Notes under the pieces: generated by a model
Told to the model about the DNA's origin: nothing
Databases searched by the model: none
Seen by the model: only the letters and a program-made list of their open reading frames with translations
Position numbers and translations under genes: made by a program
In this document: positions 5,848 through 11,496 of the stretch, piece after piece
Numbering within the stretch: position 1 is the stretch's first letter
Layout: each line of letters begins with the position of its first letter
Assembly (NCBI GenBank): GCA_020051025.1
Contig: JAGVJS010000040.1
Location: 1-11,496, forward strand
Source of the DNA: Sphingobium sp.
GTDB lineage: Bacteria; Pseudomonadota; Alphaproteobacteria; Sphingomonadales; Sphingomonadaceae
Direction: 5' to 3'
Length of the DNA stretch: 11,496 nt

Positions 5848-6297
5848 ATGCACATTGATGTAAGCCTAGATGTTTTCAAAGCGTTGACCAATAAATTACG
5901 CTATGAAGGCCATAGCTTTGATGACGTAATAAGAGAACTATTAGCGCTTGATTCGCCAACGGAGCCTGATCGCGATGCCAAGGCAGGTCTTGAAGATAGC
6001 GAACCGCTCAGCAGCGTGAATCGCAGCTTTTGCCGCATAATGGGTGAATTTTACTCGCGCGGCCTTATCTTGCCAGATGGTACAGAGCTACGCGCACGGT
6101 ATAAAGGACAGGAGTTCCGGGCTCGAATAGAAGGCGGCACATGGCTTGATGAGGGCGGGCAAGAGCATTCCAGCCCTTCCGCTGCTGCGCGTGCCATCAC
6201 CGACAACAATGTTAACGGCCTGCGCTTCTGGGAAGCGCGTCGTCCGGTTGATACATTTTGGCGCAAACTCGATTCTATTGCGGGTGAAAACCAATGA
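5848..6297 (+). CDS. Ribbon-helix-helix plus RAMA domain protein
   Basis: Protein of 149 residues in two parts. Residues 2-32 (HIDVSLDVFKALTNKL, then FDDVIRELL) have the short strand and two helices of a ribbon-helix-helix DNA-binding/dimerisation unit, somewhat like the SeqA N terminus. After a charged linker, residues about 68-131 match a RAMA-type domain: LILPDGTELRARYKGQEF, the SSPSAAARAIT block (108-118) and NGLRFWE (123-129). RAMA domains are known from restriction-modification and modified-DNA-binding contexts, and a close relative is DUF4357. No catalytic motif is seen, so it most likely binds DNA. Its stop shares the sequence ATGA with the start of higB, a 4-nt overlap that implies translational coupling. 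Codon use is less GC-biased than uvrB or ruvB, suggesting acquisition. The exact domain name is less certain than the two-part layout. Confidence 0.75.
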   Translation: MHIDVSLDVFKALTNKLRYEGHSFDDVIRELLALDSPTEPDRDAKAGLEDSEPLSSVNRSFCRIMGEFYSRGLILPDGTELRARYKGQEFRARIEGGTWLDEGGQEHSSPSAAARAITDNNVNGLRFWEARRPVDTFWRKLDSIAGENQ

Positions 6298-6575
6298 TCC
6301 GCTCCTTCGCCGATCCCGAAACCGAGAAAGTCTGGAACGGTGAGCGTAGCCGCAAGCTGCCGCCTGACATTCAGCAGACGGCACGGCGCAAGATGCGACA
6401 GATTCACCGTACCCTTAACCTCTATGATTTGCGGGTTCCCACAGGAAATCGGTTCGAGCAGTTGAAAGGCTTTACCCCTTCACGATATAGTCTGCGGATC
6501 AACGACCAGTGGCGCATCACGTTCGGCTGGTCAGACGGAGGCGCAGACAATGTCCGGATCGAGGACTATCATTGA
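6294..6575 (+). CDS. higB: HigB-type toxin, RelE/ParE superfamily
   Basis: Type II toxin of the HigB/RelE-ParE superfamily; relatives are ribosome-dependent mRNA interferases. At 93 residues it has the family's usual length and shape: a start MIRSFADPETEKVW, a basic helix near RRKMRQIHRTL, the DLRVPTGNRFEQLKG segment, and the conserved C-terminal strands YSLRINDQWRITFGW and a final VRIEDYH. The Arg residues of the RINDQWRI strand and the closing DYH are the typical conserved positions. It overlaps the RAMA gene by 4 nt and higA by 26 nt, in the toxin-first order typical of higBA. A GGGTGA sequence inside the end of the RAMA gene may serve as ribosome site. It looks intact, so it is expected to need an active antitoxin. 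Confidence 0.92.
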   Translation: MIRSFADPETEKVWNGERSRKLPPDIQQTARRKMRQIHRTLNLYDLRVPTGNRFEQLKGFTPSRYSLRINDQWRITFGWSDGGADNVRIEDYH

Positions 6576-6870
6576 GGATGACGATCAACTGGACAACGTG
6601 CATCCCGGCGCGATCCTCCGTGAAGATTTCCTGATCGGCAGCGATATCCCGACGCAAGAAGTAGTCGATGGAGCCGGCATCTCTGCCGATAGGCTGAAAG
6701 CGATTCTTTTGGAGCGCGCACCAATCGATGCAAATATCGACCTACGGCTCGCCCGCTATTTCGGCGTGAGCGAGGGTTTTTTTCTTGGCCTCCAGATTGA
6801 CTATGATCTGGAGGAAGAACGTCGCACCCATGGCGATGAAATCGCGCGCATCACTAAACGCGCGGCCTGA
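6550..6870 (+). CDS. higA: HigA-type antitoxin, HTH XRE family
   Basis: Antitoxin partner of HigB, 106 residues. Family signatures are VHPGAILREDFL (17-28) before the helix-turn-helix, LRLARYFGVSEGFFLGLQIDYDLE (65-88) after it, and a charged C-terminal tail. Such proteins bind and neutralise the toxin and repress their own operon through the HTH. The middle of the HTH (about 33-62) differs from common HigA proteins: where relatives usually have a Gln/Arg-rich recognition helix and a basic turn, this one reads VVDGAGISADRLKAILLERAPIDANI, so DNA specificity may be unusual. GGAGG (6537-6541) lies 8 nt before the ATG, inside higB, supporting this start. It is the last gene of the cassette and its stop codon falls in the loop of a GC-rich hairpin. 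Confidence 0.92.
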   Translation: MSGSRTIIEDDDQLDNVHPGAILREDFLIGSDIPTQEVVDGAGISADRLKAILLERAPIDANIDLRLARYFGVSEGFFLGLQIDYDLEEERRTHGDEIARITKRAA

Positions 6871-9639: not shown

Positions 9640-10662
9640 CTAATCGAAGAGGCCGTTCTGCACATCGTGCGGCGGGTTAAGGCCCAGATGCTTCCAGCCG
9701 GGGCCGTTGAGACAGCGGCCTCGCGCGGTGCGAGCGATGAGGCCGAGCTGAATCAGATAGGGTTCGACCACTTCCTCGATCGTGTCGCGCGCTTCGGAGA
9801 GGCCGGCGGCCAGCGTCTCCACGCCGACCGGGCCGCCGCGATAGATATCGGCGATCATCATCAGGTAACGCCGATCCATCAGGTCAAGGCCGAGATGATC
9901 GACCTCCAGCCGTTGCAGCGCAGCGTCAGCAACCTTCGCATCGACAGTCGGCGCGCCCGCGACATTGGCGAAGTCGCGCACCCGCCGCAGCAGCCGCCCG
10001 GCGATACGCGGCGTACCGCGGGAGCGGCGGGCGATCTCGATCGCACCATCGGAAGTGATGGCCAGATCGAGCAGTCGCGCGGCCCGGCGCACCACCAGTT
10101 CCAGTTCGTCCACCGTGTAGAATTGCAGCCGTACCGGAATACCGAAACGGTCGCGCAGCGGCGTGGTGAGCAGCCCCTGCCGCGTGGTCGCGCCGACCAG
10201 CGTGAAGCGCGGCAGGTCGATCCGGACCGAGCGGGCGGACGGTCCTTCACCAATCATCAGGTCGAGCGCGCGATCCTCCATCGCGGGATAGAGGACTTCC
10301 TCGACCGCCGGGTTCAAGCGATGGATTTCGTCCACGAACAGGACGTCGCCCTCATCCAGATTGGTGAGCAGCGCGGCAAGATCGCCAGACTTGGCAATGA
10401 CCGGGCCAGACGTGGCGCGGAAACCCACGCCCATTTCCTTGGCGACAATCTGCGCCAGCGTGGTCTTGCCGAGCCCCGGCGGCCCGAAGAACAGCACATG
10501 GTCGAGCGCATCGCCACGCGACTTCGCCGCCTGGATGAAGATGCGCAAATTCTCGCGCGCGGCCTGCTGGCCCACAAATTCGTCGAGCGACTTGGGGCGC
10601 AGCGCCGCGTCCACATCCTCGGGGCGCCGCGCAGGGGTGATGAGGCGGTCGTCGTCAGTCAT
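9640..10662 (-). CDS. ruvB: Holliday junction branch migration ATPase RuvB
   Basis: Motor of the RuvABC Holliday junction resolvasome: hexameric AAA+ rings driven by ATP pull the arms of four-way junctions that RuvA holds. The 340 residues have the full set: the N-terminal [12 protein letters not shown], Walker A GPPGLGKT (60-67), Walker [10 protein letters not shown] (109-117), sensor 1 in TLVGATTR (154-161), arginine finger in PLRDRFG (168-174), sensor 2 in [17 protein letters not shown] (216-232), and the C-terminal winged helix ending with [13 protein letters not shown]. Length matches the family. The ATG is preceded on its strand by AAAAAGG with 7-nt spacing, a modest ribosome site. RuvA normally lies just upstream; here a GIY-YIG repeat unit is wedged between, with its edge only about 20 nt from this start codon. 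Confidence 0.99.
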
Positions 10663-10681
10663 GGACGAGCCTTTTTACCAA

Positions 10682-10710
10682 CGTCATGCTGAACTTGTTT
10701 CAGCATCCAT
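10682..10710. repeat. Left copy of 29-bp inverted repeat (hairpin palindrome)
   Basis: Exact reverse complement of the repeat at 11056-11084. It contains a nested palindrome, ATGCTGAA (10686-10693), loop CTTGT, TTCAGCAT (10699-10706), able to form an 8-bp hairpin, then CCAT. The stop codon and last three residues (HGC) of the GIY-YIG gene are encoded by this repeat. Confidence 0.95.
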
Positions 10711-11026
10711 GGCGCGGCAAATCCTGTCCTATCGGTGGCAAACCGAGGGTGACAGAAAGGTCGATCCATTGCGGATTGTCCGTTTCGATGAGATTGATTT
10801 TCCACTGTCGACGCCATCGCTTCAGTTGCTTCTCGCGCAATATCGCCTGCTCCATCGTTTCGCAGGGTTCGTAGCGGACGAGCCGATGTATGCCATATCG
10901 GCTGGTGAAGCCGGGCAACGCATCTGTGCGATGCTGCATCAACCGGCCAAGCAGATTCGAGGTTACGCCAATGTAGAGCGTGCCATAGGGCTGGCTGGCG
11001 AGGATGTAGACGCATGGTTCCTTCAT
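10700..11026 (-). CDS. GIY-YIG nuclease family protein
   Basis: Small single-domain GIY-YIG protein of 108 residues, the fold of UvrC's N-terminal nuclease and of homing endonucleases. The first signature strand is CVYILAS (5-11), followed by GTLYIGVT (15-22), the catalytic Arg28 in NLLGRLMQH, and the metal-binding Glu65 in ILREKQLKRW. All catalytic positions expected of the fold are present, so it should be an active nuclease, though many such small proteins have no proven substrate. The ATG chosen has GAGGT 5 nt upstream (complement of 11031-11035). The frame is open 18 codons further up, to 11080 inside the right-hand repeat, where it would add MLNLFQHP. The C terminus and TGA stop come from the left-hand repeat, so gene and repeats look like one unit. 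Confidence 0.9.
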   Translation of the reverse strand: MKEPCVYILASQPYGTLYIGVTSNLLGRLMQHRTDALPGFTSRYGIHRLVRYEPCETMEQAILREKQLKRWRRQWKINLIETDNPQWIDLSVTLGLPPIGQDLPRHGC

Positions 11027-11055
11027 CCGCACCTCGCTTTGGTGATGACGGCCTG

Positions 11056-11084
11056 ATGGATGCTGAAACAAGTTCAGCATGACG
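11056..11084. repeat. Right copy of 29-bp inverted repeat (hairpin palindrome)
   Basis: Reverse complement of 10682-10710 without mismatch. The nested palindrome is ATGCTGAA (11060-11067), loop ACAAG, TTCAGCAT (11073-11080). It lies 14 nt beyond the ruvA stop and 29 nt upstream of the GIY-YIG start codon. Read towards the GIY-YIG gene it encodes MLNLFQHP. Confidence 0.95.
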
Positions 11085-11098
11085 AGTGCGTGAGGATA

Positions 11099-11496
11099 TC
11101 ACTTCGCCGCCTTTCGCAGCGCCAGCCGCACCAGTGCGTCGAGGCTGGCGCCTTCGCCCAGTTCCTCTTCAGCGGCGGCGACGGCGATGCTGGCTTCATG
11201 GGGTTTGAAGCCCAGATTCTGGAGCGCGGACAGAGCATCGCTGCTGTGATTGCCGACCGGCATGGCGACCGCGCCGGCCACACCGACGGGGCCGCCGGCC
11301 GCGATCCCGCCGATCTTGTCCTTGAGTTCGTTGACGATGCGCTGGGCCAGTTTCGGGCCGACGCGATTGGCGCGGGCCACCATCGCCTTGTCCCCCGCCG
11401 CGATCGCACGGTGCAGGTCGTGCGGCTCCAGCGCGGACAGGATCGCCAGCGCCACGCGCGACCCCACGCCCTGCACATGGGTCAGCAGCCGATACC
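11099..11496 (-). CDS. ruvA: Holliday junction DNA helicase subunit RuvA (5' part outside window)
   Basis: C-terminal two thirds of RuvA, the tetramer that recognises the Holliday junction and loads RuvB. The frame is open to the window edge with [22 protein letters not shown], the first helix-hairpin-helix; [23 protein letters not shown] is the second; a Gly/Ala/Val-rich flexible linker follows, then the RuvB-binding domain [23 protein letters not shown] through [14 protein letters not shown]. The N-terminal OB-fold domain, about 65-70 residues, must lie beyond the right edge; the GTG at 11476 is internal, not the start. RuvC and ruvA usually precede ruvB in one operon, consistent with transcription leftward from outside the window. 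Confidence 0.96.

Follow-up and report, generated by a model that had tools for sequence, protein, structure and literature searches.

The DNA analysed here, an 11,496-nucleotide stretch from Sphingobium sp. referred to below as the window, contains two host genes on the minus strand, ruvB (9640..10662; Pfam RuvB_N, 8e-80) and the 3' part of ruvA (11099..11494; Pfam RuvA_C, 4e-12), which are set apart by a small unit made up of a nuclease gene and two terminal repeats. The left repeat (10682..10710, plus strand) starts with an outward-facing CGTC head (10682-10685), followed by the first strand of a stem (10686-10693), a loop (10694-10698), the second strand of the stem (10699-10706) and a CCAT tail (10707-10710); the arm thus reads CGTC, ATGCTGAA, CTTGT, TTCAGCAT and CCAT. 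The right repeat (11056..11084, minus strand) is its perfect inverted copy, with the CGTC head facing outward on the ruvA side. These arms (29 nt, 100% complementary, 345 nt apart) constitute the sole perfect pair among the 25 longest inverted pairs listed for the window, and folding of one arm as single-stranded DNA gives an 8-bp stem with a 5-nt loop (-6.7 kcal/mol, z -4.1). The enclosed gene (10700..11026, minus strand) has its ATG at 11026 and its stop codon inside the left repeat, and encodes a GIY-YIG nuclease of 108 amino acids (Pfam PF01541, 6e-12). Two spacers complete the arrangement, one of 14 nt from the ruvA stop to the right repeat (11085..11098) and another of 19 nt from the ruvB start to the left repeat (10663..10681), both variable in relatives. 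The preliminary description of this DNA had reported perfect 29-bp inverted ends with an 8-bp-stem palindrome in each, a single GIY-YIG gene whose stop codon lies in the repeat, and the separation of ruvA and ruvB with short spacers; the inverted-repeat listing and the folding confirm the first point, and the coordinates together with the Pfam matches confirm the other two.

Repeats of this kind belong to the CGTC-tagged REP superfamily defined by Di Nocera, De Gregorio and Rocco in 2013. According to the available text of that survey (PMC3733652), these REPs have an unpaired CGTC at one end, a stem of 8-9 bp starting from AT, a loop of 4-5 nt and a tail that is usually CCA; they are mostly HH dimers, and they are present in all orders of alphaproteobacteria and also in Neisseria, rickettsiae and Wolbachia, the named carriers including S. 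chlorophenolicum, S. meliloti, A. lipoferum, N. aromaticivorans and the Neisseriae (dRS3). The window repeat fits this type (CGTC head, 8-bp stem starting AT, 5-nt loop, CCA tail), and layout, paired units and alphaproteobacterial spread are common to both. With up to 3 mismatches allowed, its 26-nt core has 11 matches in the 2.44-Mb assembly, the two of the window among them, and the reversed pattern has none, so two facing copies 345 bp apart are not the result of chance.

A longer open reading frame (10700-11080) starts inside the right repeat and adds MLNLFQHP... to the protein, outside the region of homology; such REP-encoded starts are a likely source of wrong start annotation for genes of this kind. 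Elsewhere in the window, a small open reading frame at 6294-6575 has a Pfam HigB-like toxin match (2e-15) and is overlapped by another at 6550-6870, which looks HigA antitoxin-like by eye and has no Pfam match at 0.001.

The GIY/YIG core with the conserved Tyr, Arg and Glu and a further active-site residue is present in the window protein. Across 48 sequences Y7, Y18, G20, R28, H32, E65 and N84 are invariant, and we take these positions to have the active-site roles of their counterparts in I-TevI and UvrC. Pfam gives GIY-YIG plus a borderline T5orf172, whereas no match was obtained in Rfam and NCBIfam, and PADLOC returned weak matches alone (E 0.003 to 0.06), to parts of PDC-S14 and UzuA. The structure model (pLDDT 85.8) is best matched by UPF0213, Slx1, the N-domain of UvrC and I-TevI, and the nearest solved structures are remote (best E 9e-6). 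With these nucleases (in I-TevI, the catalytic domain) the window protein shares the fold and the catalytic-type residues, although it is barely more than a catalytic domain of about 90 amino acids. Slx1 acts on branched DNA. Median dN/dS values of 0.08-0.14, depending on REP type, reveal purifying selection on the gene. To our knowledge, no REP partner has been described for UPF0213, Slx1, the UvrC N-domain or I-TevI.

Inverted REPs around the nuclease gene in other genomes

Two more close GIY-YIG genes are present in the same genome (2.44 Mb, 61% complete), at C374:230-493 (65% identity) and C342:2018-2275 (53%). Both are bounded by inverted CGTC REPs with differing stems (about CGTCATTCCCGCG and CGTCATGCCAGCG), which gave a first hint that the pairing is general and type-specific. 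The association was measured by a motif-free test, in which the best ungapped match between the left 180 bp and the reverse complement of the right 180 bp must score at least 14; the control uses the right flank reversed but not complemented. Among 61 genomes of the genus, 57 have a nuclease match with an E value of 0.001 or lower, weak in some cases, and inverted repeats surround 125 of the 141 loci of the nuclease subfamily (control 0/141), that is, 97/110 in a first set and 28/31 in loci added later (controls 0/110 and 0/31). The first set consists of 30 loci from the search and 80 taken by rank order with repeats ignored, and the 141 loci are nearly all the matches listed, down to about 115 bits; the listed matches outside them are G015:C15 (contig edge), G020:C168 (the same locus as L124), four copies in G035, the other two genes of the window's own genome and one tandem copy in G059. 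The same test was negative in control windows inside the 110 loci (0/217) and in 200-bp flanks of ruvB (0/30).

Beyond the genus, a second collection of 80 loci was chosen by protein similarity alone. The motif-free test was positive in 51 of 79 (control 0/79; L074 left out), and 16 of the 28 misses represent one conserved neighbourhood, mostly from Sphingomonas. When L074 and L087 are set aside for short flanks, 43 of 78 loci have a CGTC REP on each side with both heads out and 62 have at least one REP nearby, the REP density being 3.25 per kb near the gene vs 0.13 per kb further off. Phylum-wide, where 123 of 299 genomes have a nuclease match (many of them weak), 22 of 29 new best-scoring loci were positive with 200-bp flanks (control 0/29). 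Seven of nine named records from a plasmid collection, chosen from 34 with a match, were also positive (control 0), including Sinorhizobium meliloti, Azospirillum lipoferum (between sufB and sufC), Novosphingobium aromaticivorans and Neisseria gonorrhoeae, the unit of the last being flanked by repeats of the dRS3 kind that face inward. The search of sphingomonad genomes for repeat and protein that the preliminary description had proposed thus ties the repeat to GIY-YIG genes, and the exceptions are of two sorts: REP-rich genomes without a cognate gene, and gene copies without REP pairs. A cyanobacterial member of the subfamily, on a Planktothrix agardhii plasmid beside the DISARM gene drmA (L459), has GTCATTCTGAG...AAGAATCTC repeats near it, perhaps a further REP type, with an inverted-repeat score of just 12.

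The REPs around the genus loci can be described by seven consensus strings. Head-out REPs are found on both sides of 89 of the 110 loci, and in 87 of these 89 the left and right REPs are of the same type; when the nearest REP alone is considered, 81/110 loci are head-out and 5/110 head-in on both sides. Since the strings were derived from the same loci, the densities of the types (5.16 per kb near the gene vs 0.04 far from it) are partly circular, which is not the case of the motif-free test. Two types deviate from the CGTC REP layout, type D in its head (CGTG) and type C in its tail (CTCA). When the seven types and 'none' are mapped as eight labels onto a tree of 109 proteins (the 110 less the fragment L180), 8 changes are enough; no fewer than 7 could be expected of eight labels, shuffled labels need 65.8 on average, and none of 200 shuffles is as low. 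This agreement is partly due to joint inheritance, because flanks and gene are linked. The 110 loci fall into 24 genomic contexts as judged by tblastx of the flanks; type A nevertheless recurs in five contexts, type B in five and type C in nine. In REP pairs of two types, at L462 (G031:C44) and L465 (G044:C4), inspection by eye showed a nested palindromic repeat of greater length (AGAGCATCGTGCGCAAAAGTGGGAACCGGTTTT... or variants).

A second GIY-YIG family (L291-L320), with a member in the window's own genome (L291, C21:8066-8332; Pfam GIY-YIG, 7e-17), has inverted palindromes of another kind (CCGTTCG...) around 27 of 30 genus loci (control 0/30), which indicates that the pairing of GIY-YIG genes and palindromes is not limited to CGTC REPs. 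These palindromes read CCGTTCGTTTCGAGC... and CCGTTCGCCCTGAGC..., and the protein looks UPF0213-like by eye. Genes of the DUF559 family (PF04480; L354, L355 and L362-L391) are often enclosed by C-rich palindromes (CCCCTCCCGC...GCGGGAGGGG among them); they may possibly be a third nuclease-like family with hairpin repeats, the motif-free test being positive in 20/30 but also in 4/30 controls, owing to low complexity.

Free REP pairs, REP load and the ruvA-ruvB junction

REP pairs without a gene are also dispersed in these genomes, with their CGTC ends outward and commonly 60-64 bp from start to start. On the question raised in the preliminary description, genus counts show that solitary REPs outnumber full units, and both have common boundaries, namely CGTC...GACG ends. 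Of 16 type-A free pairs examined in G026, 15 measure 88-92 bp from CGTC to GACG and one measures 143 bp, and the 30 nt on either side have no common sequence by eye. The pairs were found by their end strings, so their ends are exact by choice, and their status as boundaries rests on the unlike flanks and on an empty site. The latter comes from eight G026 pairs that were compared with six relatives; 23 alignments were examined, covering six of these pairs, and the remaining two had matches that were partial or within another repeat. A single comparison (L247 vs L392, 90% identity) offers a clean high-identity empty site, in which the limits of the insertion lie no more than about 3 bp from the CGTC ends, with no sign of a long target duplication; L248 vs L393 (84%) also fits, and the rest were too diverged, rearranged or occupied by other REPs. 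One free pair of G031 (L463) is 98% identical over 46 nt to the end of a full unit in another genome, the similarity extending 17 nt past the REP, as expected from an internally deleted unit.

REP load follows the presence of the gene. Type-A REPs occur in 44 of the 61 genus genomes, with the reversed-pattern control at 0 in all 61. The 24 genomes with a clade-A nuclease carry 4-48 of them (median 11) and the 37 without a clade-A unit have a median of 1, with 17 having none (p 4e-9, or 4e-8 once the REPs of the unit itself are subtracted). Clade A was named by its REPs, but on the protein tree it is set apart by a single branch, present in 76% of bootstrap trees, so that label and protein clade are equal there. 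The state of the gene changes 15 times on the ruvB tree, from which 10 independent supported pairs were obtained: in about 7 of them the REP load goes the same way as the gene, in about 0 the opposite way and in about 3 there is no difference (median p 0.016 with thresholds of 2 or 4 free REPs, 0.03 with a threshold of 6). The exceptions without a clade-A unit are G031 (28 REPs), G036 (26) and five genomes with 4-7; as G036 is placed among unit-bearing genomes and has an empty ruvA-ruvB junction, recent gene loss is the simple reading for it. Type D shows the same tendency, with a median of 9 REPs in 13 genomes with the unit and of 1 in 48 without it (p 2e-5, 1e-3 after subtraction). This replicate is weaker than type A, and four genomes without the unit, as judged among the matches listed (at least about 115 bits, so that the gene may be missed there), hold 36-86 REPs.

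The comparison of ruvA-ruvB junctions suggested by the preliminary description revealed that the gene is not fixed at this place: among 59 readable genus junctions (two more are unreadable), 17 have the unit, all oriented as ruvAB, 22 are empty, the ruvB start overlapping the ruvA stop, and 20 contain something else. Neither this position nor the distribution of the repeat, which is linked to GIY-YIG genes, corresponds to a fixed syntenic gene beside an unrelated repeat. Of the 20 other junctions, six hold a short stretch (30-48 bp), one a REP pair (137 bp) and 13 an insert of between 258 and 1146 bp; ruvA-ruvB, otherwise an overlapping gene pair, is an insertion-prone place. A REP pair without the gene lies at the junction of G054, and an apparent remnant of one repeat at that of G046. 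In the second collection, ruvB is in the flank of 24 of 80 loci, with ruvA on the other side in 23 of the 24. The gene runs with ruvAB in Sphingobium and against it in Novosphingobium and in further genera, Erythrobacter, Porphyrobacter and Qipengyuania among them, which could be explained by inversion between the repeats or by separate insertions. Junction polymorphism and both orientations lead us to consider the ruvA-ruvB units as probably old but unstable.

No full unit was caught moving cleanly in the two cases followed. Four identical copies at contig ends in G035 have the look of fresh transposition, but the piece that they share (at least 438 bp) outruns the REPs and the contigs stop there. 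The site of the G018/G050 unit gave no clean empty site in G016, G022 or G029; G029 has a decayed remnant, and G016 and G022 have a DUF559 gene between other palindromes. Since inheritance at a conserved place accounts for the majority of units (the 110 loci represent 24 contexts), the term 'minimal mobile element' is too strong; of the two alternatives first put forward, mobile or domesticated, a domesticated partner nuclease of dispersed REPs is the better fit.

Likeness to REP/RAYT and candidate roles of the nuclease

The system most like the one described here is REP/RAYT (TnpA-REP, REPtron, REPIN), which also has a small nuclease-type gene between inverted REP hairpins, dispersed free REP pairs with common ends and several clades with distinct repeats. 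RAYTs are, however, tyrosine (HUH) transposases tied to GTAG REPs, as stated in the available text of PMC3733652, whereas the window protein is a GIY-YIG enzyme and its REPs are of the CGTC type. A Y1 tyrosine transposase with an HUH motif is absent, Pfam and the structure model both giving GIY-YIG, and GTAG-tagged flanks are absent as well, the window repeats being CGTC-headed and those of relatives CGTC- or CGTG-headed. The unit is therefore not a member of the REP/RAYT family, though it appears to work like one by analogy. RAYT and GIY-YIG enzymes have unrelated folds. Insertion sequences and MITEs share with it the terminal inverted repeats, the single gene and gene-less derivatives with common ends. 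Unlike them, it has neither a known transposase nor a clear target duplication, and each genome contains few full units, mostly at conserved positions.

The agent that makes CGTC REPs was left open by the 2013 survey, the available text of which states that these REPs "apparently lack a dedicated transposase", suggests that the enzyme may have died out and ties no gene to them (PMC3733652); in the present analysis a GIY-YIG gene is bounded by them, also in records of the taxa named there. A literature search, with most subscription journals and preprints outside its scope, found no relevant link between GIY-YIG and REP, REPIN, RAYT, dRS3 or extragenic repeats, and there is none in the available parts of PMC9465073, PMC12306157 and PMC6006769.

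With a probability of roughly two thirds, we consider the window segment to be a copy of a widespread two-part system, consisting of a GIY-YIG gene within a cognate pair of CGTC REPs and of dispersed REP pairs, which would be REP/RAYT-like and domesticated. The results suggest that the GIY-YIG nuclease is the missing partner enzyme of the widespread CGTC REP family, that is, the counterpart of RAYT. From the REP/RAYT analogy, the most likely target of the nuclease is the REP hairpin, either single-stranded or extruded, together with its unpaired CGTC head, and the enzyme would cut at or near that head; the cut might let REP pairs be copied or inserted elsewhere with defined ends, while the gene-bearing unit would be kept largely at conserved places by selection. 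The idea of a GIY-YIG enzyme with its own palindromic ends, put forward in the preliminary description, is strongly supported as a conserved association, and the action of the enzyme on those ends is what we infer from the analogy.

An unlikely alternative, though the one that best accounts for the data after this, is a homing-like process, in which DNA devoid of the unit would be cut by the nuclease at intergenic sites or at REPs and would then acquire the unit or the REP pair through recombinational repair, the REPs being recognition and protection elements rather than transposon ends. GIY-YIG is the fold of the homing endonuclease I-TevI, which is among the structural matches, the units recur at the same sites across species, the G018/G050 site is occupied in G016 and G022 by another palindrome-flanked nuclease-like gene (DUF559), and the one empty site has no clear target duplication. 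Nevertheless, gene-less REP pairs with the same ends occur at many unrelated sites, which simple one-site homing does not explain. Less probable still is a role in genome upkeep, in which the nuclease would remove, process or limit REP hairpins, or a regulatory one with the hairpins as its targets, in either case without spreading them. Purifying selection and conserved positions would suit such a host function, as would a fold like that of Slx1 and UvrC, which act on DNA structures; against it, clade-A genomes carry more, not fewer, cognate REPs, also in the tree-independent pairs. Finally, it is highly improbable, in view of the controls, that REPs, perhaps as terminators, pile up in intergenic gaps and merely flank a gene of unrelated function: the gene is mostly vertically inherited and the majority of REPs lie between genes, downstream of coding regions (PMC3733652, available text), but repeats are not found in this way around ruvB or in other windows of the same loci, left and right types are matched and mostly head-out, distinct nuclease clades have distinct REP types, REP load follows the gene across genomes, and a second GIY-YIG family has a second family of palindromes.

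To return to the two-part system, a wider form of it is about evenly balanced between being right and wrong: GIY-YIG enzymes might spread REPs as a second class beside the RAYTs and unrelated to them, with one subfamily for CGTC REPs (including the dRS3-like ones of Neisseria) and another for CCGTTCG palindromes, and hairpins would be moved without a covalent transposase intermediate. We know of no such transposition-like reaction for bacterial GIY-YIG enzymes.

The matched GIY-YIG gene makes the origin of CGTC REPs testable, with an enzyme of about 100 amino acids and a defined hairpin substrate, with clade-specific substrate pairs as built-in controls and with natural strains that have or lack the gene. 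If the enzyme does disperse REPs, nucleases of unrelated folds would have entered into partnership with REPs on at least two occasions, and the GIY-YIG reaction would count among the chemistries that move DNA in bacteria.
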